DNA of 42,594 bases from a virus. The stretch spans positions 1 through 42,594 of the IMG/VR virus record IMGVR_UViG_3300003937_000089; one strand, written 5' to 3'. Within the stretch, counting starts at the first letter, position 1. Every line of letters begins with the position of its first letter. Below the pieces are notes generated by a model that did not search any database, had not been told where the DNA came from, and worked only from the letters and a program-made list of their open reading frames with translations. This document shows, one piece after another, positions 2,282 through 42,594 of the stretch. The position numbers and the translations under genes are program-made.

Positions 2282-2765
2282 AGATCTTAAAGATAGGGTT
2301 TTTAAAGTACCTGAAGATATTTGTGATTATATACTTAAGTTTTTTAACTCATTAAGTGATAAGACGATAGACGGTACACAACGGGCTAAGAATTTACTTA
2401 GAACTAAGAATATTACTTATGGTCAAGCAAAAAGAATTATTCATGATTTAGAGAACATGGATAAAGAGAGTGACCACAACCAATTTCATCTGGCGGGGGG
2501 AGATAAAATGTTAGAATGGTGTAAAAAGTTTTTAAACGGAGAAAGAAACCTTATTAAAAACAATAAAGAATCTAAAAAAAGGGCAGACAATATTGCACAA
2601 TTGGATGACATAAGAAAAAACCCTTACCTATCGAAACACGATAAGAAAACAAATTACTCAATCCCAAGAAATATGATGAAATCTAACTCAGATAAAACTT
2701 CAGTTAGTCCCATTTCATCGTTAGGTATTTTTGAGGATGTTGAGAGAATTAAAAAATTATTATAA
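2274..2765 (+). CDS. Hypothetical protein
   Basis: This 163-residue basic, largely helical protein is not recognised. Its ATG lies inside the end of the previous gene (8-base overlap), and its stop shares a base with the next ATG (TAATG), so translation is probably coupled. The C-terminus, FEDVERIKKLL, resembles the end of the protein encoded two genes downstream (ENIKRIKRLLYK), possibly a shared targeting or docking peptide. The location in a run of putative head-associated genes suggests a virion or assembly role, but nothing in the sequence proves this. Confidence 0.7.
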   Translation: MNRDLKDRVFKVPEDICDYILKFFNSLSDKTIDGTQRAKNLLRTKNITYGQAKRIIHDLENMDKESDHNQFHLAGGDKMLEWCKKFLNGERNLIKNNKESKKRADNIAQLDDIRKNPYLSKHDKKTNYSIPRNMMKSNSDKTSVSPISSLGIFEDVERIKKLL

Positions 2766-3709
2766 TGGCAAGTCAAATAGAAAAAATATCAAAACAATTT
2801 TTAGACGAATCAATGTCAAGAAATGATTACCAAAAAACAAAGAGTTATGATTCTAACCATTCCAACGCAATTTCTGATGGGGACGATAAAGGTAAAGGAG
2901 AAAATAATGGTAAAGTCGGTTCAAGTACAGATATTAACACAAGAATTGATTCCTTAGGTAGAAATAAATATGGTCCTAACTTTGGTTATGGTATTGAAAA
3001 CACAAACGCATTATCTGATGGAGATGAGTTTGGTAGAGGTGAGAGAAATGGTGAAGTAGGTACAATAACCGACCAAAATCAAAGACAAGAACACATAAAA
3101 AGAAACTCATACAACTCTGATAACGGTTACGGTATTAATCACCCCAACGCAATTTCTGATGGGGATGAGTTGGGTAAAGGAGAGAATGACGGAAAAGTTG
3201 GTGGATTAACAGATAATCAAACAAGAGTGGATAATGTATCTAGAAACTCATACAACTCAAGTAATGGTTATGGTGTAAACCACCCTAACGCAATATCTGA
3301 TGGAGATGAATTAGGTAAAGGTGAGAATAACCAAATGGTTGGATCTATAACTGACATCAATACAAGAGCGGCAATAATTGCACAAAACAAATACAGTAAT
3401 GACTTAAATGGGTATGGTGTGAATCATCCTAATGCATTGTCGGACGGAGATGACTTAGGTAAAGGTGAAAATAATAATCAGGTTGGTTCACAAACCGATA
3501 TAAATAATCGTTTAGATAATCAAGCAAGAAACATATATGATGAAAACAATTCATATAGTTTAGTACACCCTAATGCAATTTCTGATGGCGATGAAAAAGG
3601 TAGAGCAGAAAACAATAATAGTGTAGGTACATCAAAAGATATAAACGAAAGAAACCAAAGTATTGCAAGGAACCAATATAGTGGTAATAGTGGTTATCCC
3701 GATTTTTAA
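2765..3709 (+). CDS. Six-repeat (47-residue period) acidic phage protein
   Basis: This 314-residue protein is made almost entirely of six tandem units. Each has the core N-A-(I/L)-S-D-G-D-x-x-G-(K/R)-x-E-N followed by V-G-x-x-(T/K)-D and a conserved Arg. Cores begin at residues 34, 81, 128, 175, 223 and 270, so the period is 47 with one step of 48. Between cores a Tyr/Asn/Gly segment (N-x-Y ... GYG) recurs. Asp/Asn/Gly-rich loops of this kind could bind calcium, but this is inference. The N-terminal ~15 residues end FLDE|S, a candidate prohead-protease site. It shares its first base with the previous stop. It is not assignable to a named family and is probably a virion protein. Confidence 0.8.
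   Translation: MASQIEKISKQFLDESMSRNDYQKTKSYDSNHSNAISDGDDKGKGENNGKVGSSTDINTRIDSLGRNKYGPNFGYGIENTNALSDGDEFGRGERNGEVGTITDQNQRQEHIKRNSYNSDNGYGINHPNAISDGDELGKGENDGKVGGLTDNQTRVDNVSRNSYNSSNGYGVNHPNAISDGDELGKGENNQMVGSITDINTRAAIIAQNKYSNDLNGYGVNHPNALSDGDDLGKGENNNQVGSQTDINNRLDNQARNIYDENNSYSLVHPNAISDGDEKGRAENNNSVGTSKDINERNQSIARNQYSGNSGYPDF
2864..3652 (+). repeat. Six tandem coding repeats, ~141 bp each
   Basis: Coding repeats of 141 bases (one of 144) within the 2765-3709 gene. The best conserved part is the NA(I/L)SDGD core. Copies differ at many synonymous sites, so the array is old and maintained by protein selection rather than a recent DNA duplication. Confidence 0.8.
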
Positions 3710-9414: not shown

Positions 9415-10474
9415 AAAAATAGAAAACTTGGAAAAAATAGAAAGTGCGTATGATAGGTTAAAATCTAACAAACATAAGTTATACTTTCTTACATATGATA
9501 CTAAAACAAATGCAAGGGCGTCAGTTAAATACATATATGACACCGTACACACTTTAAGAGAAAGTGGGTTAGATGCATACATTTTAGTTGAAGATAAAAA
9601 CTACGTAGGTGTTAATTCGTGGTTAGGTGACAGATTTAAAGATATACCAATTGTGAGTATAAAAGAGGATCAAGTTCAAATGGGTATTGAAGATATTTTA
9701 GTGGTACCTGAATACTACTCTAACGTACTTGAACAACTGGCATCAGTTAAATGTACTAAGGTTATGTTAGTACAACAAACCGAATATATATTTGAAACCC
9801 TACCTGTTGGTAGTAGATGGAGTGATTATGGTTTTGATAAAGTAATTACAACAACACAAAAATCTAAGGAATATATAAAAAGTATTTTCCCTGAGAATTT
9901 GATTCACGTAAATCCACCAAAGATTGGTGATGGATTCTCTCCTTCAGAAAACCCTACCAAACCTTTTATTGCCATTAGTGCGAGAGACCGAGGTCAACAT
10001 AGAAAAGTAATATCAGAATTCTATTTAAAGTACCCTCAACTAAGATGGGTTACATTTAAAGATATGGTACAATTAACCTATGAAGAATTTTCTACCCAAT
10101 TAAAAGAATGTATTTGTTCTGTTTGGATGGACGATGATTCTACTTTTGGGACGTTCCCTTTGGAGTCAATGAAGTGTGAAGTACCAGTTATTGGTAAAAT
10201 ACCTACAACAGAACCTGAGTGGTTGTCCGAGAATGGTATATGGACTTATGATTTAAATAAAATTGTAGAACTACTAGGTACTTACGTTTTAGCGTGGTTG
10301 GAAGGAGTAACAATTACTGACGAAGTAAAAGAAAAAATGAGAGAAACACTAATACCATACGATAGTGATATAATCGATAACAATGTGACATCTATTTTTA
10401 ATTCACTTAAAGAAGGAAGATTAAACGTATTGTCAGAAGCGTTGGATAAATTAAAACAAGAAGAAACAGCATGA
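9407..10474 (+). CDS. Glycosyltransferase, GT4-like
   Basis: This 355-residue protein has a GT-B pattern: KLYFLTYDTKTNARASVKYI (~24-43) as the first Rossmann strand and helix, TTTQKSKEYIKSIFP (~142-156) where an acceptor-half helix is expected, and FIAISARDRGQHRKVI (~178-193) opening the donor half. The donor-binding segment is FGTFPLESMKCEVPVIGK (~240-257), with the conserved E-x-M-x-x-x-x-P-V-I of family GT4. It overlaps its neighbours by 8 and 4 bases, so it is translated with the GT2 enzyme that follows. The target of glycosylation is not evident. Confidence 0.78.
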   Translation: MSEKIENLEKIESAYDRLKSNKHKLYFLTYDTKTNARASVKYIYDTVHTLRESGLDAYILVEDKNYVGVNSWLGDRFKDIPIVSIKEDQVQMGIEDILVVPEYYSNVLEQLASVKCTKVMLVQQTEYIFETLPVGSRWSDYGFDKVITTTQKSKEYIKSIFPENLIHVNPPKIGDGFSPSENPTKPFIAISARDRGQHRKVISEFYLKYPQLRWVTFKDMVQLTYEEFSTQLKECICSVWMDDDSTFGTFPLESMKCEVPVIGKIPTTEPEWLSENGIWTYDLNKIVELLGTYVLAWLEGVTITDEVKEKMRETLIPYDSDIIDNNVTSIFNSLKEGRLNVLSEALDKLKQEETA

Positions 10475-11256
10475 AAAATATAACCGTAATATTACCTATT
10501 CACGATTTGAAAGGTGAATATAATGAAATGTTTTCAAGAGCAATACTTTCTGTAGAACAGTTTCATGACGATGTCTCCCTATTATTAGTGGGACCTAAAA
10601 ATGTCTTGGGAGATCTAAAAAAAGATAGTATTTCAGATAAATTAGATGTTAATATAGTAATCAATGAAGGGGACACAGGTTTCTGTTCTCAAGTAAATTT
10701 GGGAATTGATAATTGTGAAACTGAATGGTTTTCAATATTGGAGATAGATGATGAATACACACCTAATTGGATTAAGTCATTTAGAACATACCATACTCTT
10801 TTCCCTGACGCGGATATCCTATTACCAATCGTTAAAGATGTTAATTCTGAAGGTAAACTTTTGAATTTTACAAATGAATCTGTTTGGGCATATGGTTTCA
10901 GTGAGAACCAAGGAGAACTAAGTAATGAAATACTTTTAGATTATCAAAATTACCAAACAAGTGGTGGTTTCTATAAAACAGAAGTTATTAAAGAAAATGG
11001 TTCATTTAAAGATAATATTAAACTCACATTTAGTTATGAGTTTTTATTGAGATTAACTCATAACGGCGCTAAAGTGGCCACTATCCCTCAAGTTGGGTAT
11101 AGACATGTAAACTTTAGAGAAGACTCATTATTTTGGTCCTATAAAAACTCAGACGATCACAAATTAGGTGATGGTGAAGCTAAGTTTTGGTTGGAGACCG
11201 CTAAAAAAGAATTTTTCTTCAAGAATAAACGAGAAGTAGAATACGTAGACAATTAA
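10471..11256 (+). CDS. Glycosyltransferase, GT2-like (GT-A fold)
   Basis: This 261-residue enzyme starts ITVILPIHDLKGEYNEMFSRA, the typical first strand and helix of family 2. A SLLLVGPKN strand comes next, then N-E-G-D-T-G-F-C-S-Q-V-N-L-G-I (~66-80), matching the N-x-G-x-x-x-A-x-N-x-G segment of GT2 proteins. The metal-binding D-x-D equivalent is ILEIDDEYTP (~90-99). A Gly-Gly segment (TSGGFYKTEV, ~163-172) marks the acceptor loop. It is cytoplasmic, with no membrane segment. It overlaps the GT4 gene by 4 bases and shares one base with the sigma gene start, forming a tight three-gene unit. Confidence 0.82.
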   Translation: MKNITVILPIHDLKGEYNEMFSRAILSVEQFHDDVSLLLVGPKNVLGDLKKDSISDKLDVNIVINEGDTGFCSQVNLGIDNCETEWFSILEIDDEYTPNWIKSFRTYHTLFPDADILLPIVKDVNSEGKLLNFTNESVWAYGFSENQGELSNEILLDYQNYQTSGGFYKTEVIKENGSFKDNIKLTFSYEFLLRLTHNGAKVATIPQVGYRHVNFREDSLFWSYKNSDDHKLGDGEAKFWLETAKKEFFFKNKREVEYVDN

Positions 11257-11957
11257 TGCCCAGAAAAAGAACCCAAAAAATGTACTTTGGGGAGGAGCAA
11301 GAACAAGCGGTAGTAAGATTTTTAGAATCAGAAAACGAAGACGAAAAGAATAAGATATTTAATGAATATTTAAGAGAACCTCTCAAAATAATGGTGGAAA
11401 GTATAATTCGCCGTTACAAACTTTATAGGAAAGACTATAATTTCGAACAAATACATACTGATACATTATCATTTTTAATGACTAAGATCAGTAAGTTTGA
11501 TACGACTAAAAATTATAAAGCATATTCCTATTTCGGTACTATCTGTAAAAATTACCTTATGGGTACAATACAGAAAGACCAAAAACTAATGAACAGGTCT
11601 GTTTCCTATGAAGACATATCCTCACGGATTGAAGATAGGGCGGACCTTTCTTACATTATAGACGAAGAAATTATAGATTATAAGGATGTCGTAAATAAAC
11701 TTACGGTTGAATTAGAAAAATTTATCGAAGAAGAAACCCTTAATGAGAATGAACAGAAGTTAGGATATGCCCTTGTTGAGGTCTTTACCAACTTTGAAAA
11801 GATATTTCAAGTGGGTGAAGGTAATAAGTTTAATAAAAACTTAATTCTATTATCCTTACGTGAGATGACTTCACTATCTACCAAAGAAATAAGAGTTGCT
11901 ATGAAAAAGTTTAAAAAACTCTATGAGGTATTGAAGTTAGATTTTATAAATTACTAG
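11256..11957 (+). CDS. 55: Late-transcription sigma factor, T4 gp55-like
   Basis: A 233-residue RNA polymerase sigma factor related to T4 gp55, which directs host polymerase to late promoters with only a -10 box. Residues ~40-110 form a sigma region 2: helices REPLKIMVESIIRRYKLY, then FEQIHTDTLSFLMTKISKFD and YKAYSYFGTICKNYLMG, the last matching the -10 recognition/melting helix. There is no obvious region 4 for -35 contact, as in gp55. The C-terminal ~60 residues (FNKNLILLSLREMT ... STKEIRVAMKKFKKLYEVL) form another helical unit. It is the likely reader of the lone TATTTATA boxes before structural genes, one of which lies 8 bases after its stop. Confidence 0.85.
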   Translation: MPRKRTQKMYFGEEQEQAVVRFLESENEDEKNKIFNEYLREPLKIMVESIIRRYKLYRKDYNFEQIHTDTLSFLMTKISKFDTTKNYKAYSYFGTICKNYLMGTIQKDQKLMNRSVSYEDISSRIEDRADLSYIIDEEIIDYKDVVNKLTVELEKFIEEETLNENEQKLGYALVEVFTNFEKIFQVGEGNKFNKNLILLSLREMTSLSTKEIRVAMKKFKKLYEVLKLDFINY

Positions 11958-11964
11958 AACAATC

Positions 11965-34475: not shown

Positions 34476-34847
34476 TTATGAAACTGAAATAGTTCTTTGT
34501 TTAGTTTTTTTCTTACTCTTAGGGAAATTTATGTAGAGTATCCCATCTTTAACTTTAGCGTCAATCTTCTTTTCATCAATATCGTCAGGTAAAGTATAAG
34601 TTCTTTCAAATGAACCCATATAATCAGTGGAATCCTCAGTTCTACTATAATTGACCTTAAGTAAGTCCTCTTCAACCACGATATTGATATCGTTTTTATT
34701 AAGACCCGGAACAAGAAATTGTAATTCATACTTATTCTCATCCTCATGTCTATGTACATTGACACGACCACTTTGAGTGGTCTCAGTTTTAGAGTCGAAA
34801 AACTCATCAACAAATTTGATCCATGGATCGTTTCTAAATAAAATCAT
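34476..34847 (-). CDS. Small heat-shock protein, Hsp20/alpha-crystallin family
   Basis: This 123-residue holdase chaperone binds unfolding proteins and prevents aggregation. The alpha-crystallin domain runs from ~27 to 115: R-V-N-V-H-R-H-E-D-E-N-K-Y-E-L-Q-F, then V-P-G-L-N-K-N-D-I-N-I-V-V (~46-58) and F-E-R-T-Y-T-L-P-D-D-I-D (~78-89). It ends with K-D-G-I-L-Y-I-N-F-P (~98-107), the family's G-I-L hallmark. The N-terminal arm (M-I-L-F-R-N-D-P-W-I-K-F-V-D-E-F-F) is short, and the C-terminal tail lacks a clear I-x-I/V beyond T-I-S-V. It is divergent from the phage ClpC gene, with a shared regulatory region. Hsp20 genes are common in marine T4-like phages. Confidence 0.92.
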   Translation of the reverse strand: MILFRNDPWIKFVDEFFDSKTETTQSGRVNVHRHEDENKYELQFLVPGLNKNDINIVVEEDLLKVNYSRTEDSTDYMGSFERTYTLPDDIDEKKIDAKVKDGILYINFPKSKKKTKQRTISVS

Positions 34848-35032: not shown

Positions 35033-37048
35033 ATGTCAGTAGATTTTTTCGAAGAGGGAACACAGTCCCAAAGTAAAAGAGGTAAGAAAGGTAGTAAGAC
35101 GCCAGTTTTAGATAATTTTTCACGAGACCTAACACAATTAGCATTAGATGGGGATATCGATCCTATCATTGGTAGAGATAAAGAGGTACATCGTATTGCA
35201 CAAATATTATCTCGTAAAAAGAAAAACAATGTTGTCATTGTTGGTGAAGCGGGAGTTGGTAAATCCGCATTAGTGGAAAAACTTGCACTACTTATAAGTG
35301 CGGGTAACTGTCCTACCAATCTTTTAGATAAAAGGATTATGTCGTTGGATTTAACGTCTTTAGTTGCGGGGACAAAATATAGAGGTCAATTTGAAGAAAG
35401 AATTAAAGTAATTCTAAACGAACTACAAGACGCACCTAATGTGATTATTTTCATTGACGAGATACACACCATGGTTGGTGCGGGTAACGCTTCGGGTTCT
35501 ATGGATGCCGCTAACATACTTAAACCGGCACTTGCAAGAGGTGAGATACAATGTATAGGGGCAACCACTTTCGATGAGTATAAGAAAAATATTGAGAAGG
35601 ACGGTGCTCTTGTAAGAAGATTCCAAAAGATTATATTAGAAGAACCGACAACGGTAGAAACTATCGATATTTTAAAGAATTTAAAAGATTCTTATGAGGA
35701 CTATCATAGAGTCGATTATCAAAAAGACGTAATTGAAACTATTGTGAAGTTATGTAAACGATTTATTACGGACAAACAATTCCCTGATAAGGCTATCGAT
35801 GTTTTGGATGAATTAGGATCACAGAAAAAAATAAATATTAAGATACCAGAATCTATAGAGAAACTGAAAAAAAGTTGTGAATCTATTAGAATTAAAAAAT
35901 TAGAAGTTGTAAAGAATCAGGATTACGAAAAGGCAGCAAACCTTAGAGATCAAGAAAGAAAGATCCTCAAGAAATTAGATAATGAAAAGAAAAAATGGAA
36001 TAAAGAACAACAACTAAATAAGAAACCTATTTCAGTGGACGATGTTTATAATATTATTACCGACATCACAGGGGTACCAATTAATAAATTAGATACTAAG
36101 GAAACCAAATCACTATTATCTTTAGAGAAAACAATATCCAAAAATGTTATTGGACAAGACGATGCCGTTGAGATCATATCAAAATCAATAAGAAGAAATA
36201 GGGTTGGTGTTAAGGGTCATAATAAACCTATTGGTTCTTTCATGTTCTTAGGATCTACTGGTGTGGGTAAAACACACTTAGCAAAAACATTAGCCAATAC
36301 CTTATTTGGAGATCCCGACAAGATTATAAGGGTAGATATGAGTGAATTCATGGAAAAACACAATGTTTCCAAACTAATTGGGTCTCCTCCGGGTTATGTC
36401 GGATTTGAAGAAGGTGGTCAGTTAACCGAGAAAATTAAGAATAATCCATTTTCAGTTGTCTTATTTGACGAAATAGAAAAGGCACATAAAGATGTCTTCA
36501 ATATCCTACTTCAAATATTGGATGAGGGTAGGTTAACAGATTCATTTGGTAGGAAAGTAAATTTTACTAATACTTTGATAATAATGACGTCGAACGTCGG
36601 TGCTAAGAAAGTTGCCGATTTTGGTGGGGGTGTAGGTTTTACATCTGACGGTGATAGGGCTAAAGTAAAAGACTCAATCATTAAAAAATCATTGAAACAA
36701 AAATTTAGTCCTGAATTCTTAAATAGAATCGATGATATTATTGTATTCAATAAACTACAAGATAAGTCACTTAAAAAAATTATCACTATCGAGTTAAATA
36801 AATTATCAAAAAGACTTATCGAGAGTGATTACAAAATAAAATTTGATCGTAGTGTAAGTCAAGAAGTTTTAAATAGAAATTCTGAAGAAGAGTATGGTGC
36901 GAGACCAATAAAACGAATCATACAAAACCTGTGTGAGGATTTTATAAGTGATAAGATTTTAGAAGGTGAGATTACGGAGAATTCCGATTTCATCTTAAAA
37001 ATTAAAGACGGAAACATGGAATTATCAAAAAATATTCCCCTGATTTAA
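35033..37048 (+). CDS. clpC: ClpC-like AAA+ protein unfoldase lacking the N domain
   Basis: A 671-residue, two-ring AAA+ ATPase. D1: Walker A GEAGVGKS (71-78), pore loop K-Y-R-G (115-118), Walker B IIFIDEIH (138-145), Arg finger in A-L-V-R-R-F (192-197). A UVR-like coiled segment (N-Q-D-Y-E-K-A-A-N-L-R-D, 295-306) takes the place of the long ClpB middle domain, as in ClpC. D2: Walker A GSTGVGKT (407-414), pore loop G-Y-V-G (454-457), Walker B VVLFDEIEKAH (475-485). V-G-F (534-536) sits where ClpC/ClpA carry the ClpP-docking loop. The usual ~150-residue N-terminal substrate/adaptor domain is missing, replaced by ~25 basic residues. The sequence around F-L-N-R-I-D-D-I-I-V-F-N looks Bacteroidota-like. 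It probably docks on host ClpP and redirects proteolysis. Confidence 0.93.
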   Translation: MSVDFFEEGTQSQSKRGKKGSKTPVLDNFSRDLTQLALDGDIDPIIGRDKEVHRIAQILSRKKKNNVVIVGEAGVGKSALVEKLALLISAGNCPTNLLDKRIMSLDLTSLVAGTKYRGQFEERIKVILNELQDAPNVIIFIDEIHTMVGAGNASGSMDAANILKPALARGEIQCIGATTFDEYKKNIEKDGALVRRFQKIILEEPTTVETIDILKNLKDSYEDYHRVDYQKDVIETIVKLCKRFITDKQFPDKAIDVLDELGSQKKINIKIPESIEKLKKSCESIRIKKLEVVKNQDYEKAANLRDQERKILKKLDNEKKKWNKEQQLNKKPISVDDVYNIITDITGVPINKLDTKETKSLLSLEKTISKNVIGQDDAVEIISKSIRRNRVGVKGHNKPIGSFMFLGSTGVGKTHLAKTLANTLFGDPDKIIRVDMSEFMEKHNVSKLIGSPPGYVGFEEGGQLTEKIKNNPFSVVLFDEIEKAHKDVFNILLQILDEGRLTDSFGRKVNFTNTLIIMTSNVGAKKVADFGGGVGFTSDGDRAKVKDSIIKKSLKQKFSPEFLNRIDDIIVFNKLQDKSLKKIITIELNKLSKRLIESDYKIKFDRSVSQEVLNRNSEEEYGARPIKRIIQNLCEDFISDKILEGEITENSDFILKIKDGNMELSKNIPLI

Positions 37049-37126: not shown

Positions 37127-37167
37127 CTCGTTAAATTATTGGTGTTGAAACCAGTATAGACCTAAAA

Positions 37168-37195
37168 CCCCAGCAAACCTTGTTGGGGTTTTTTT
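37168..37195. terminator. Bidirectional terminator between convergent transcripts
   Basis: CCCCAGCAA (37168-37176) / TTGTTGGGG (37180-37188), a 9-bp stem with one G-T pair and loop ACC, followed by seven T on the plus strand. The stop codon of the convergent minus-strand gene (37194-37196) overlaps the T-run. On the minus strand a shorter T-run follows. Confidence 0.85.
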
Positions 37196-37631
37196 ATATC
37201 CCCTTTTCTATTGCCTTCTTAACAGCGGATGAAAATGTTGTCTTATCAAAAGGTATATCATCATTTTGTAAATCTATAAATGTGGACTCTACCGTAGATT
37301 TGGCTCTTCCTTCCACCTCAATCACTTCCCCGTCCATGTAGATCAGTAAAGTAACAATTGTTTTTTTACTCACTTTCGTCCATGGACCAAGTTGGATCCC
37401 TGTTTGAGGGGACTCTATTGATTGTACAATAACATCAATCGGTTTACCATCCATACATAAATTGTATTTATCTGAGATAATGTCTTCCATCATCTGTTTT
37501 ATACCGAATGTAATCCTTCTTTTACTGATTTCTTCCATTTCAATTTCAGTGGTTACTGATTTAATAGAATAACAATCAACCTGTGAAAATAATAGGGTTG
37601 GGAATAATAAGAGTATTAGTAAATTTTTCAT
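37194..37631 (-). CDS. Exported protein of unknown function, last gene of the CsgG-like operon
   Basis: A 145-residue protein with a clear signal peptide (MKNLLILLLFPTLLFS), cut probably just before Gln 17. The mature part has two Cys (20 and 59) that could form a disulfide. It contains an alpha/beta domain: P-I-D-V-I-V-Q-S-I-E-S-P (~64-75), K-K-T-I-V-T-L-L-I-Y-M-D-G-E-V-I-E-V-E-G (~89-108) and a C-terminal helix (TTFSSAVKKAIEKGI). Size, export and position beside a CsgG-like gene recall the periplasmic accessory CsgE of curli systems, but no CsgE signature is visible. The 'strand, E-G-x-A/G, helix' ending also resembles the CsgG/LpoB-type fold. Confidence 0.75.
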   Translation of the reverse strand: MKNLLILLLFPTLLFSQVDCYSIKSVTTEIEMEEISKRRITFGIKQMMEDIISDKYNLCMDGKPIDVIVQSIESPQTGIQLGPWTKVSKKTIVTLLIYMDGEVIEVEGRAKSTVESTFIDLQNDDIPFDKTTFSSAVKKAIEKGI

Positions 37632-37633
37632 AA

Positions 37634-38983
37634 TTAAAATCTGATTTTACCACCAGTCAGAACTTGATAGTTTAATGCATTACCTCCCGATTGCCAAACT
37701 CCCGTAAAACTGATGTTATATTTAAATGTTTTTGTGATTTGAATATCCCAAGAACTAAATGGTACTATTAATAATCCAGGGTCCCACCACTGACCCTCAT
37801 AATACTGTGTGAATGGAGAATACACCCCCAATATTAGAGCCGATGTTGTGATCTTCGGAGTTACTCTAAAGTTTCTATGAATACCACTGACTGCGGATAG
37901 ATTTTGTAATTCTCTTTTACCTAATTTACCTATTGTAAAATTAGCACCCACCATACCCGTAAATTTCTTTTTACCAAACTTAAATGATTCTAAAACAGTA
38001 GTTGTATTTAAATGGTTTTGATCAAAGTTGGTCATCGTGGTGTTTGCACCCACTAAATTAAATGTCCTATTTGGGTTTATCCATGATTTGTAGAAAGTTA
38101 AACTAAAATCATTAGTTACGGTTGTGTATGTAAATAACGCACCTTGGACTCTACTCTTTTTTGTATTCGCACTTGTAATAGATCCTACCACTTTTATTTG
38201 TCGACCATTCGAATTGTCTTGGTTATCAATAACCACGATATCTCCTGATGCTATTAGTGAACCTCTATTTTTATTGTCTGACTCTCCACCATCTATTGCA
38301 TTAGAAACTGAATTTGCCAAAGACATGGTTAACCCACCTTCTTTTGATTCCTCTTCAGTCGCAGTTTCACTACCTTCTGTCGATGTACCGTTTTCGTTAG
38401 TGTTACCTTGACTACCGTTAGTTTCATTAGAACCTGATTCGTTAGACTGTTCAGAACTATTGTTAGATTCACCCCTATTCTCGCTTTTGTTATTGGATCC
38501 TACGGATTGTTCTTTAGAATTTTCGGTTTTAGTATTATTCTTCCCCTTCTTTCTTTTCTTCTTCTTTTTTGATGCGTTATCGATGGCCTCCGCCACGGGG
38601 ACACCTGATGATGATAGTGCCTGTGGTAACATGTCCCCACCCAAAACACTCATTATATTTGTAATTACTGTGATAGTATTTTGAACTATCACTGCATTTG
38701 TATTATTAGTAACTATTTGGGATATTTCTTGACATGGGTTTGAAGAGTTAGATTGAGTAACTATGTTCATCCACGAATCAAAAGTACCATTAGTAAAATC
38801 GAGCTGTGTGAATGTCTGTACGTTACCAAAATAATTCAGAACAATTTCATCACTTGAACCCATCTGAATTGTTTGTTGATTTAAAGTACAGGGATCTGTA
38901 AACGTGTAGGACCACTGACCGTAACCAACCAATGGTAATAAAAATAATATTACCGCAATTATTTTATTCTTCAAATATCCCAC
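37634..38983 (-). CDS. Putative outer-membrane beta-barrel protein
   Basis: A 449-residue protein with signal peptide (NKIIAVILFLLPLVGYG, cut before Gln 23). Residues ~23-125 form an N-terminal domain with three Cys. Residues ~137-215 are a low-complexity linker, first Lys-rich (KKKKKRKKGK) and then Ser/Asn/Glu/Gly-rich. Residues ~240-449 show alternating-hydrophobic strands with aromatic girdles and end G-G-K-I-R-F, i.e. with C-terminal Phe, the usual last-strand signal for outer-membrane insertion. I infer a ~10-14 stranded barrel. It overlaps the CsgG-like gene by 20 bases, so they are probably produced together. It may anchor or gate the export system; I know no named homologue. Confidence 0.72.
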   Translation of the reverse strand: MGYLKNKIIAVILFLLPLVGYGQWSYTFTDPCTLNQQTIQMGSSDEIVLNYFGNVQTFTQLDFTNGTFDSWMNIVTQSNSSNPCQEISQIVTNNTNAVIVQNTITVITNIMSVLGGDMLPQALSSSGVPVAEAIDNASKKKKKRKKGKNNTKTENSKEQSVGSNNKSENRGESNNSSEQSNESGSNETNGSQGNTNENGTSTEGSETATEEESKEGGLTMSLANSVSNAIDGGESDNKNRGSLIASGDIVVIDNQDNSNGRQIKVVGSITSANTKKSRVQGALFTYTTVTNDFSLTFYKSWINPNRTFNLVGANTTMTNFDQNHLNTTTVLESFKFGKKKFTGMVGANFTIGKLGKRELQNLSAVSGIHRNFRVTPKITTSALILGVYSPFTQYYEGQWWDPGLLIVPFSSWDIQITKTFKYNISFTGVWQSGGNALNYQVLTGGKIRF

Positions 38984-39668
38984 GTTTAATCATTCTTTTT
39001 ACAATACGAGCCGTTCCAGATTCCAACGCCTTTTTAGTTGCAATACCAATTGTTGATTTATTGAACTTTACATCATTAACGGAACCAATTTTAGTTCTTT
39101 TTATTGTGACCGCCTCACCACTTCCACTTCCTGTAAAAATGGTACCGTTCTCAGCATTAACAAATCTTACCTGCATACCAATAATAGTTTTTAGTACGGT
39201 CTTCACCCCGTCAATTGTAACTTCCTCTTCTTCAGATACCGAATAATCATATATTTCGACATAAACAAAATACTCCGCTAAAACAACATTACCCACAACC
39301 TTAATATCGTTAGATGATATTCCTTTTGCAGCTGCCTTATGTTGTTTAACCATTCTTTGTTTAATTTCTTCTTTATCTTCCGTAAATAAAAATCTATCAG
39401 TCCATTCCAAATAAGATAGAGTTATGTTACTAACACCTAATCCCACCCTATTTTCTCTTAATTCGGGGTAAAATTCATATAACTCCGGTGTAAAACCAAT
39501 ATTTAAAACTTGGATTGGTAATTGGTAATCTAACATATAATCAGATACCTCATCTATATCAATATCCTGTTCAAACTTACCTTTATAATTTTCGGTCTCT
39601 GTTTTACCTAATTGAGCCTTAACTGTAAAACTTAATAGTAACGATATAATTAAAAATATTCTTACCAT
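38964..39668 (-). CDS. CsgG-like secretion-channel protein
   Basis: A 234-residue exported protein (signal peptide VRIFLIISLLLSFTVKA, cut before Gln 19). The mature region fits the CsgG family: R-V-G-L-G-V-S-N-I-T-L-S-Y-L (~73-86, the first strand and helix of the periplasmic fold), D-I-K-V-V-G-N-V-V-L-A-E-Y-F-V-Y (~121-136), M-Q-V-R-F-V-N-A-E-N-G-T-I-F-T-G-S-G-S-G-E (~164-184) and a C-terminal helix. In CsgG nonamers the transmembrane barrel comes from two hairpins. E. coli CsgG is a lipoprotein; here no lipobox Cys follows the signal peptide. CsgG-like genes have been reported in other marine phages. A role as secretion pore for the neighbouring exported proteins is inferred. Confidence 0.75.
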   Translation of the reverse strand: MVRIFLIISLLLSFTVKAQLGKTETENYKGKFEQDIDIDEVSDYMLDYQLPIQVLNIGFTPELYEFYPELRENRVGLGVSNITLSYLEWTDRFLFTEDKEEIKQRMVKQHKAAAKGISSNDIKVVGNVVLAEYFVYVEIYDYSVSEEEEVTIDGVKTVLKTIIGMQVRFVNAENGTIFTGSGSGEAVTIKRTKIGSVNDVKFNKSTIGIATKKALESGTARIVKRMIKRGIFEE

Positions 39669-39919
39669 GTTATGTCTTCTTCTTTTTTCTCTTTCTTAGG
39701 AGGTATAACAATTGTTTTAGTTATTACCAAAGTATCCTTTATACTACTTGGGGTATTTATTTTTTGTTCCATGACAGGTAAATTTACCTTTTCTTCTTTA
39801 GGTTCAAATACAGATTGCATGTTAGCAATTAATAGTCCGAAACCCGCCGTTATAACTAAACCAATACCTGTTACTATTTGGTTTTTAATTTCTGAAAAAA
39901 ATCCTTTATTTTTACTCAT
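39662..39919 (-). CDS. Small single-pass membrane protein
   Basis: An 85-residue protein with one predicted membrane helix (IVTGIGLVITAGFGLLIANM, ~15-34) after a short Lys-containing N-terminus. A ~50-residue tail follows, ending Lys/Glu-rich (PPKKEKKEEDITW). Orientation by the positive-inside rule would place the N-terminus in the cytoplasm and the tail in the periplasm. It overlaps the CsgG-like gene by 7 bases and the T9SS-cargo gene by 4. The size and topology are also those of some phage holins or spanin-like proteins, but no lysis gene is nearby. An inner-membrane anchor for the export operon is the simpler reading. Confidence 0.7.
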   Translation of the reverse strand: MSKNKGFFSEIKNQIVTGIGLVITAGFGLLIANMQSVFEPKEEKVNLPVMEQKINTPSSIKDTLVITKTIVIPPKKEKKEEDITW

Positions 39920-40653
39920 TGTTTTATTGTTTTAAATGTTTTTACAAATTGTCCGTTAGTAATATGTAAGAGATAAACACCTTGTGGTAATGAAGATAAG
40001 TCCATTTGAAATTGTACCCATCCCGCGAAAAAAGACTTCCTCTCTTTTAAAAATTCTAATCCCCCATAGTTTAATACTCTAATAATATAATCTCCATTAT
40101 CTGGTACTGTCAGGTCGAACGTAATGGGACCTTTAGTTGGGACTGGATAAACAATCCCATAAATACCGTCAGTAGGTCTAGTATCGAAAGGCATTGATCG
40201 TTTATTAACATACCCATCCGTATTTTCAACTTCAATATCCCAACCTAATTCGGTACCCGCAGTTTTCCTACCTATTGTAATTGGAATTTCTGTCCAATTT
40301 TGATCAGTAACTTTAAATCTTACCGTAAATAATTCTGTTGTATTGATTATGGTAAAATTACCGAAGGAGGGATCATAACCTCCCCATCTAACAGTTTCGC
40401 CTTCCCAGTCCATTGTATAGGTTAACCACTCCTGTGCCTTGGGTGTCACCGTAATTGACACAAACTCTAAATAGTTTGGATCGTAATTCAATGCAAATTC
40501 AAGACTACCGACAATCTCACCCTCAGTTTCAATTTCTATGGGTAGATTAATGTAATCACTTACAGGTACTTCAATCTCAGGTACATTAAATACGACCTGA
40601 GATTGTGCACTTGTTGTGAATATTAATACTAATGTCAGTAATAATAATCTCAT
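39916..40653 (-). CDS. Secreted protein with cohesin-like domain and type IX secretion sorting domain
   Basis: A 245-residue exported protein in three parts. Signal peptide 1-18 (cut before Gln 19). Residues ~20-150 form a beta-sandwich resembling cohesin domains: V-P-V-S-D-Y-I-N-L-P-I-E-I then G-S-L-E-F-A-L-N-Y-D-P-N-Y-L-E-F-V-S-I (~49-67). Residues ~164-245 form a C-terminal domain with the hallmarks of T9SS type A sorting domains: Y-P-V-P-T-K-G-P-I-T-F (169-179), a strand V-L-N-Y-G-G, D-L-S-S-L-P-Q-G-V-Y-L-L-H-I (218-231) and T-F-K-T-I-K-Q at the end. Bacteroidota secrete and surface-attach proteins through such domains. For a phage gene this implies use of the host T9SS. Confidence 0.82.
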   Translation of the reverse strand: MRLLLLTLVLIFTTSAQSQVVFNVPEIEVPVSDYINLPIEIETEGEIVGSLEFALNYDPNYLEFVSITVTPKAQEWLTYTMDWEGETVRWGGYDPSFGNFTIINTTELFTVRFKVTDQNWTEIPITIGRKTAGTELGWDIEVENTDGYVNKRSMPFDTRPTDGIYGIVYPVPTKGPITFDLTVPDNGDYIIRVLNYGGLEFLKERKSFFAGWVQFQMDLSSLPQGVYLLHITNGQFVKTFKTIKQ

Positions 40654-40654
40654 A

Positions 40655-41749
40655 TTAATTTAAACCTGTTCCATTGGCATCTCCTAATATTAATAAGTAG
40701 AAGTTACCCGTAGTTGTGTTATTAATTAATGGAGATAAAAACTCCGTTAGACCCGGTATAGAACTAGACTGATCTGATGTTGCACTACTAATAGTAGTAT
40801 ACTGTGCTTCAGTAAAGAACAATACATCTGGATTAGAAGAATAACTTGAGTTACCTTGTGCTAATCTAGAGAATACCATATATGAATCCGATGCGGTAAT
40901 TCCATTATTTTGATTTGTATTCGCAGTATAGAACTGAATTCCTGATGGTGATTGTACCCCCGCAGCAATTTGTGCGATCATATTAGCATCTGCAGTTGAT
41001 AGTGCGGTACTCGCATCTAAACCACTTGCAATCTTGAGTCTAATTTGCCAATAATCCTGATCTAAATTTTCTGAGAACACCGACTCCCCATTCGAGTTGG
41101 TTGTTACTGTGGTAACATCTGTCCAAGACGAACCATCTGACGATTTTTGTAATATTACATCAATAGAGTCTGCTGGATTTGTCCCACTATTTAGAATTGT
41201 GGCGGTATAATCAAATGCCGGTTCTATAAAATTACCACCATTATCTTGTGTACCCAATACCCCATCAGTCCCATCAGACTTTACATAATAAGCGGTAAGG
41301 TCGGTAGTAAAATCTACGTCCGCAACTGCCGAGTTTGTATAGTTAGAAAGAAAAGGGGCATTTACTGTAAACATGTTACCCGCAATCATATCGAAAGTGG
41401 TAGATGATCCTGAATAAACCCATACCACTTTTATAACTCCACTTGTTGAATCGACATCATAAGACAAATACCCGGCAGGGCCAGATGTATTGTTATATGT
41501 TAAAGTGGGTTCATCAAATACCGTGTTATCATAATTAAATGAAAACTGAATACCTTTAACATCATTACCCGACGTATTATCGTAATAAATGTCAAATGTT
41601 GTGTTTGAGGTTGATGAGGTGGATTCTAAAGTGTAAGTTGAATCAAAGATAATATAAGGTTTAGTTGCGTCAGGTGAAGTCGTCTGCCCGAAGACAGTCA
41701 TCGTACCAATTAGCAAAGATAGTGTTAGAAAAATGTTTTTAAGTTTCAT
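40655..41749 (-). CDS. Secreted cohesin-like plus dockerin-like protein
   Basis: A 364-residue exported protein (signal peptide KLKNIFLTLSLLIGTMTVFG, cut before Gln 22). Residues ~35-150 resemble a cohesin beta-sandwich: Y-D-N-T-S-G-N-D-V-K-G-I-Q-F-S-F-N-Y-D (~56-74). Residues ~175-240 are a second beta domain. Residues ~248-300 contain two dockerin/F-hand-like halves: A-L-S-T-A-D-A-N-M-I-A-Q-I-A-A-G (249-264) and N-Q-N-N-G-I-T-A-S-D-S-Y-M-V-F-S-R-L-A (278-297), the latter with the Asx-rich calcium loop. The C-terminus F-Y-L-L-I-L-G-D recurs in the next gene upstream. It lies one base from the T9SS-cargo gene, which carries the other cohesin-like domain. Confidence 0.8.
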   Translation of the reverse strand: MKLKNIFLTLSLLIGTMTVFGQTTSPDATKPYIIFDSTYTLESTSSTSNTTFDIYYDNTSGNDVKGIQFSFNYDNTVFDEPTLTYNNTSGPAGYLSYDVDSTSGVIKVVWVYSGSSTTFDMIAGNMFTVNAPFLSNYTNSAVADVDFTTDLTAYYVKSDGTDGVLGTQDNGGNFIEPAFDYTATILNSGTNPADSIDVILQKSSDGSSWTDVTTVTTNSNGESVFSENLDQDYWQIRLKIASGLDASTALSTADANMIAQIAAGVQSPSGIQFYTANTNQNNGITASDSYMVFSRLAQGNSSYSSNPDVLFFTEAQYTTISSATSDQSSSIPGLTEFLSPLINNTTTGNFYLLILGDANGTGLN

Positions 41750-41766
41750 CGTTTTTTTTTACTTTT

Positions 41767-42594
41767 TTAATTTTTATGTCCTACTCTTAATAAATAGAAT
41801 GTTGTCTGATTTCCATTGGCTAAATCAAATAGAGACCATGATCCGTAACCAACGTATATCGTTTTATCGTCTGAATCCGCAGCAACTGCCGGCCAAATGG
41901 TCGGGTTTTGCCAAGAATTTGTGTTCCATATTTCTTGTCCCCCACCAGGGTAACTAGAAATGTTACCGTGTCTTCTCTGGTGCATTAGATAGATATCAGA
42001 GACAGAAAACGAACCTGTATTATTCACATCCATTCTCCAATAATCTTTTGAACTGAATGTGTCTGATAATAATCTATCTTGAAACCAATTTATATCTGTG
42101 GTTATAAGTGTTCCTAATGACGGATTAATATCTATTGTAAAATCGTAATCGTTGTAATTTAATGTGGTATTAAAAGAATAATACCCATTTGAATCTGTTG
42201 TTGTTGTTGCTTGAGTCGTATATGAAAAACCGACTTGATTTTTATTCTGTGTCTTTAGATAAACTGTTTGTCCTCCAATACCTTGTTCTTCTCCCCCTTT
42301 AATATAACCACTTGCCGTGATTGGTACAGCGTTAGGGTCGGTAGCAGACCATTCTGCAAATGGATGACTAGGACTGAGTTGATTAAATTGACCTGTATTG
42401 TAGTTAGCGGGTATTTCATATTGGAAATTTGCAGCACCTATACCACCAAAATTCTGTATTCTATATTCAAATTCATACCATACAGTTTTATCTAGGGTTG
42501 CCGTACCATAAGCCCATACATTCCAACCATAATGTTTAGTAACTATATCATTAGTCTTACCAATACCTTTAATCATAAACTCATGTGAGTCATC
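41767..42594 (-). CDS. Extracellular dockerin-like multidomain protein (partial, N-terminus beyond right edge)
   Basis: The frame is open to the right edge (D-D-S-H-E-F precede Met 42576), so the gene starts outside the window; at least 275 residues are present. Contents in order: a beta domain with Y-E-F-E-Y-R-I-Q-N-F-G; a carboxypeptidase-regulatory-like domain (G-Y-I-K-G-G-E-E-Q-G-I-G-G-Q-T-V-Y-L ... D-S-N-G-Y-Y-S-F); and a dockerin-like pair (I-T-T-D-I-N-W-F-Q-D-R-L and D-V-N-N-T-G-S-F-S-V-S-D-I-Y-L-M-H-Q). The C-terminus F-Y-L-L-R-V-G-H matches that of the next gene. No T9SS sorting domain is seen. It is probably an extracellular matrix-type or adhesive protein, exported like its operon partners. 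Confidence 0.8.
   Translation of the reverse strand, partial: DDSHEFMIKGIGKTNDIVTKHYGWNVWAYGTATLDKTVWYEFEYRIQNFGGIGAANFQYEIPANYNTGQFNQLSPSHPFAEWSATDPNAVPITASGYIKGGEEQGIGGQTVYLKTQNKNQVGFSYTTQATTTTDSNGYYSFNTTLNYNDYDFTIDINPSLGTLITTDINWFQDRLLSDTFSSKDYWRMDVNNTGSFSVSDIYLMHQRRHGNISSYPGGGQEIWNTNSWQNPTIWPAVAADSDDKTIYVGYGSWSLFDLANGNQTTFYLLRVGHKN

Follow-up and report, generated by a model that had tools for sequence, protein, structure and literature searches.

What would a phage do with a run of seven genes whose products nearly all bear export signals? The window analysed here is a 42.6-kb virus record whose contig is that of a T4-like phage, with a gp23-related major capsid protein (found by tblastn) and, from reading the translations, a large terminase and a portal. 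Filling positions 37194–42594 are seven co-directional minus-strand open reading frames (genes 1–7, encoding 145, 449, 234, 85, 245, 364 and at least 275 residues), spaced from gene 1 to gene 7 by +2, −20, −7, −4, +1 and +17 nt (gaps positive, overlaps negative). The longest open frame of the region runs to 451 codons, compared with a maximum of 171 codons over 100 shuffles. A first-pass annotation had described a tightly packed minus-strand operon of almost exclusively exported products, and the analysis confirms it. As the comparisons below show, a large family of Bacteroidota viruses carries conserved genes predicted to encode sugar-binding proteins that are linked into a chain outside the infected cell by cohesin–dockerin contacts of the cellulosomal kind and exported through the type IX secretion system (T9SS) of the host.

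A terminator-like hairpin with a 13-pair stem and a T run (37164–37192) separates the operon from a convergent clpB-like gene, and a promoter scan returned fewer sites than in shuffles and was uninformative. Adjoining the operon, as judged from their translations, are phage chaperone genes for Hsp20-like (34476–34847) and ClpB-like (35033–37048) proteins. Elsewhere in the window, a long minus-strand frame at 3–1508 encodes many repeats typified by a 16-residue sequence, with a stalk- or linker-like appearance, and the protein encoded at 2765–3709 consists of several repeats of about 44 residues (NAISDGDELGKGEN...GYGVNHP).

A cohesin on a putative T9SS-sorted anchor

The putative surface anchor is gene 5 (39916–40653, 245 residues), in which a signal peptide, read from the sequence, is combined with a cohesin (PF00963; E = 3e-9, 37.5 bits against a Pfam cut-off of 24.1) and a type A T9SS sorting domain. 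The latter is recognized both as Por_Secre_tail (PF18962; E = 1.6e-7, exceeding the Pfam cut-off) and as TIGR04183 (28.9 bits against a cut-off of 23), which occupies residues 168–245 of 245, the extreme C terminus. The cohesin and T9SS cargo domains claimed for this operon are therefore confirmed, all three models scoring above their cut-offs, and both domains also lie beyond curated cut-offs in distant relatives of gene 5.

By its signal peptide and C-terminal sorting domain, gene 5 appears to be T9SS type A cargo. It resembles the cargo of Bacteroidota in carrying TIGR04183 at the very end of the chain behind an export signal, but is encoded by a phage, so that the T9SS of the host would have to be borrowed. 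We found no published description of a phage cohesin or dockerin, or of phage T9SS cargo, in the open-access literature.

A candidate adaptor and head with a shared docking-like module

Upstream of gene 5 is gene 6 (40655–41749), a candidate adaptor composed of an N-terminal cohesin-like domain, an X-like domain and a dockerin-like end, as assigned from the fold and profile of a homologue fused to gene 5. Gene 7 (41767–42594), the 5′ end of which lies outside the window, pairs a putative glycan-binding head with a C-terminal X-like/dockerin-like module; in relatives the full-length protein has about 400 residues and a signal peptide. The C-terminal modules of genes 6 and 7 are homologous (profile–profile hhalign probability of 99.6% and E = 4.8e-25), each comprising an X-like β-domain and dockerin-type F-hands. 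The F-hand loop of gene 7 reads DVNNTGSFSVSD, and a second such loop is present in 41 of 49 gene-7 proteins and in 29 of 29 fusion proteins.

The dockerin-like modules proposed for genes 6 and 7 gain support from these loops, from the profile of the fused homologue, which matches the ScaB dockerin (PDB 4uyp_B; E = 0.0016) across both repeats, and from a sub-threshold resemblance to Dockerin_1 (PF00404; best score of 20.2 bits against a Pfam cut-off of 22.9). Scaffoldin X-dockerins are also among the weak PDB matches of the shared module. In the AF2 model of the fused homologue, the N-terminal domain corresponding to gene 6 is predicted with high confidence, and the high-probability Foldseek matches are dominated by cohesin structures; this domain is cohesin-like by fold only. 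The dockerin region of the same model has low confidence, and therefore no interface is predicted. Which cohesin would pair with which dockerin is inferred, with the existence of genes 6 and 5 as one single protein in clade B and the module common to genes 6 and 7 serving as indirect pointers to the predicted binding.

Exchange of putative glycan-binding heads

Whereas the docking end of gene 7 is kept, its head varies. Among relatives, Pfam assigns the heads to Lectin_C (22 of 32), LamG (9), GEVED (2) and PA14 (2), and the sugar-site motifs EPN and WND occur in 28 of 49 gene-7 proteins. The head of the window's own clade is PA14-like by eye only, with neither a PDB sequence match nor a Pfam PA14 match; a match of gene 7 to SdrD_B is below the Pfam threshold. 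No glycoside hydrolase family appears among the Pfam matches of the heads, which are binding modules.

Pairwise comparisons separate the history of the heads from that of the operons. Between loci L025 and L034, identity is about 90% for genes 3, 5 and 6 but 38% for the head; for L109 and L025 the relation is reversed, with 28–65% identity in genes 3, 5 and 6 and 77% in the head. Within gene 7 itself, the dockerin ends of L006 and L015 are 86% identical and their heads 34%. As far as these alignments indicate, such discordance is typical of a binding module exchanged by recombination, and the swapping of sugar-binding heads would favour a glycan-binding role at the surface.

Putative envelope components, two of them related to the CsgG fold

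The remaining four genes encode putative envelope proteins. Gene 3 (38964–39668) is an exported protein whose AF2 model (pLDDT of 77.6; the five models spanned 41–78 mean pLDDT on a shallow alignment) adopts a predicted CsgG fold. In a Foldseek search of the PDB, CsgG occupies ranks 1–17 (probability 1.00, E = 2e-7 to 4e-6, TM of about 0.45), and the next match after this block is PelC, which has the same type of fold but lacks its own pore. Sequence comparisons gave a different picture: the window's gene 3 has no match to CsgG (PF03783), one of 27 relatives reaches an E value of 0.022, alignment of the gene-3 family by hhalign with CsgG of E. coli and of Pelagibacter phage HTVC008M is not significant, and nor is anything in a PDB sequence search.

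The pore of CsgG is made by two membrane hairpins from each subunit. The gene 3 model contains three long strands followed by a C-terminal helix. The second hairpin of gene 3, with landmarks read by eye, has 13 residues compared with about 29 in CsgG, roughly half the length; therefore we claim no pore, and a role as a CsgG pore is unproven. Nor does the protein have, where its signal peptide ends (VKAQLGK), the Cys of a lipoprotein; of 65 relatives, 9 show a lipobox pattern, not always a convincing one. Of the CsgG-like protein expected at this locus, then, the fold stands, and membership of the family by sequence and a proven pore do not.

Gene 1 (37194–37631) encodes a small exported protein, part of which resembles the strand–strand–helix core of gene 3 (hhalign probability of 60%, E = 8.8e-5). 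CsgF was considered for gene 1 and rejected, there being no match to CsgF of HTVC008M; short matches to ribosomal protein S1 were judged to be chance. In the operon Pfam detects neither CsgE nor CsgF and no curlin repeats, and a canonical curli operon is rejected given the absence of CsgE, CsgF, CsgA and CsgB.

In gene 2 (37634–38983), an exported protein, a conserved N-terminal domain and a low-complexity linker precede a candidate C-terminal β-barrel. Depending on the locus, the N-terminal domain is combined with one or the other of two distinct barrel-like C-terminal domains. The β-barrel originally proposed is plausible from the sequence but unconfirmed by a PDB search with the barrel region, which returned nothing significant. 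The operon of some phages includes another exported, barrel-like protein (L026, 3741–4535; L034, 11211–12020; L053, 13513–14331), and the barrel of this second protein is fused to the gene-2 N-terminal domain in clade C.

Gene 4 (39662–39919) is a small single-span membrane protein conserved in nearly all loci. Its final residue is Trp, and all 23 distinct C-terminal hexapeptides of the family end in W. Another conserved small membrane protein (WKEMLLILLGAFVG...DYWF...DKML...DEEDG), encoded at 9635–9991 of L053 and in relatives, often lies within the operon; it is missing from the window's seven genes.

Distribution and a cultured representative

The cassette is common, with gene 3 encoded on at least 545 IMG/VR contigs. 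In most of 84 loci, non-redundant yet phylogenetically dependent on one another, the core order 5-4-3-2-1 is found again, provided that the contig extends that far. Clade A is arranged as in the window. In clade B, with its 6–5 fusion, gene 7 follows gene 1 or lies beside it. Clade C has longer gene-5 relatives as well as the different barrel on gene 2; gene 7 was not detected there, and the clade C proteins tested keep the cohesin or the sorting domain above cut-off. For L100 and L106, no T9SS domain was detected in the relative of gene 5.

Outside viral collections, gene 3 gave a single match, on the 254-kb phage-like contig CAIWBA010000291.1 (L053), which is binned into an uncultured Bacteroidetes MAG; none of 395 other genomes of that phylum has it. 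The idea that the family belongs in an operon of the bacterial host is rejected, its sole candidate being phage-like.

The same gene order, sought in other Bacteroidota phages, exists in culture: Flavobacterium phage vB_FspM_immuto (Immutovirus) carries all seven genes as gp013–gp019, the gene 4 counterpart being recognized by profile. It differs from the window in sequence (about 46–59% identity for genes 1, 3, 5 and 6) and in having a C-type lectin as its head. Its operon has been annotated gene by gene, mostly as hypothetical, and not recognized as a system. By a simple home-made rule that gives some evident false positives, export-signal-like N termini are found in 7 of 7 operon proteins of immuto and 10 of 176 others. 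In this complete genome the operon is surrounded by replication and nucleotide genes and lies well away from those for the virion; in L006, a close relative, it directly follows a ribonucleotide reductase gene.

Comparison with known systems

The closest analogue in organization is the cellulosome scaffoldin system, with which the operon shares a cohesin anchor, an adaptor bearing a cohesin-like domain and a dockerin-like end, and a dockerin-bearing carbohydrate-binding partner. It departs from cellulosomes in being phage-encoded, in having no enzyme that we could find, in placing one cohesin on each separate scaffold protein, in its T9SS anchor and in a dockerin similarity that is below the Pfam threshold. 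Among CsgG-fold envelope proteins, PelC is similar in fold to gene 3, but Pel polysaccharide genes were not seen here and gene 3 has no sequence similarity to solved structures.

Marine phages offer a second comparison. Pelagimyophages and methylophage Melnitz carry csgG and csgF, for which sibling capture or lysis has been proposed, and are stated to lack CsgA and CsgB (PMC7029224, PMC9004378). In HTVC008M (L055), where CsgG and CsgF are true Pfam members, we find that gp018 (10638–11960), downstream of csgG, has PA14 and curlin repeats above Pfam cut-offs. By eye, gp016 of that phage (8871–9554) contains many curlin-like repeats. These phages and the window's are alike in being marine, T4-like and in having a CsgG-fold gene in an export operon; they differ in that the window operon matches neither CsgG nor CsgF by sequence and has T9SS and cohesin modules in place of curlin. 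That two export routes of marine T4-like phages, with no detectable sequence similarity, both come with apparent glycan-binding-type heads supports the reading as a surface adhesin for each.

A model for surface display

An exported multi-protein assembly was the central claim of the first-pass annotation, and it finds support in the cohesin and dockerin-like modules, the T9SS anchor, the preserved gene order, the 6–5 fusion and, in immuto, the distance from virion genes. We consider it marginally the better bet that the operon encodes a cellulosome-like surface-display complex without enzymes, with an anchor, an adaptor and a glycan-binding head on the infected cell. Sec export signals or a membrane anchor would take the operon proteins into or across the envelope, where the host T9SS would recognize gene 5 by its C-terminal sorting domain and carry the cohesin to the outside of the infected cell. 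The dockerin-like end of gene 6 would then plug in, with gene 6 offering a second, cohesin-like domain, and gene 7, plugging in by the same kind of end, would present its exchangeable head. Genes 4, 3, 2 and 1 (a putative inner-membrane tether, two periplasmic proteins related to the CsgG fold and the outer-membrane barrel candidate) may help to export, guide or seat the chain. As genes 6 and 7 have no sorting domain, we infer that they are carried along by gene 5 or pass through an assembly of genes 2 and 3. Most probably the infected cell would end up with a glycan-binding surface; this could hold it to neighbouring cells or to particles of polysaccharide, or late in infection could hide its own receptors.

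Masking could also be the main purpose: bound to glycans of the infected cell and of the debris it leaves, an exported lectin complex would keep other phages from adsorbing and spare the progeny from loss on debris. We think this unlikely, although it accounts for the lectins as well as tethering does, takes the same T9SS route to the surface and suits heads that swap like receptor-binding modules. A lectin common to the phage's own tail fibres was looked for and rejected, as immuto has no lectin paralogue elsewhere and hence gives no direct sign of a ligand shared by head and tail fibre. Still less probable is that genes 1–4 make up a device that spans the envelope and disrupts the outer membrane at lysis, with the cohesin proteins as part of it. 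In 47 of 84 loci a GH19 endolysin is found close to the operon, usually no more than 600 bp away, with no fixed side or orientation; also nearby are a holin (14 of 84 loci) and two kinds of exported protein, one SprT-like (31) and one a NUC1-like nuclease (9), and the CsgGF pore of Melnitz has been proposed to act in lysis (PMC9004378). The GH19 adjacency may signal a part in lysis, or may reflect only shared late expression; in immuto, one of the 47, the GH19 endolysin and the holin are about 27 kb away, and lysis genes alone would leave the lectin heads and T9SS sorting unexplained.

Least likely of all, and in our view very improbable, is that the complex ends up on released particles as extra adsorption fibres. 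Modular glycan-binding heads do resemble tail-fibre tips, but signal peptides and T9SS sorting would keep these proteins apart from virions assembled in the cytoplasm. These export signals, together with the distance of the immuto operon from the virion module, likewise make a virion fibre module unlikely.

The complete operon for the proposed surface-display complex is available in a phage in culture, immuto, grown on Flavobacterium sp. LMO8, and therefore surface display, aggregation, exclusion and lysis are directly measurable. A broader proposal, which we advance tentatively and with some doubt, is that Bacteroidota phages encode a non-enzymatic, cellulosome-like adhesion organelle, displayed through the host T9SS with recombining lectin heads, by which infected cells stick to glycans, and that pelagiphages achieve the equivalent by a curli route with a PA14 head. 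If so, the puzzling CsgG genes of marine phages would gain a testable purpose. By means of a modular, exchangeable adhesin that travels through the host T9SS, phages would be remodelling the exterior of the cells they infect, a general and unrecognized viral strategy for controlling where the infected cell is when it bursts.
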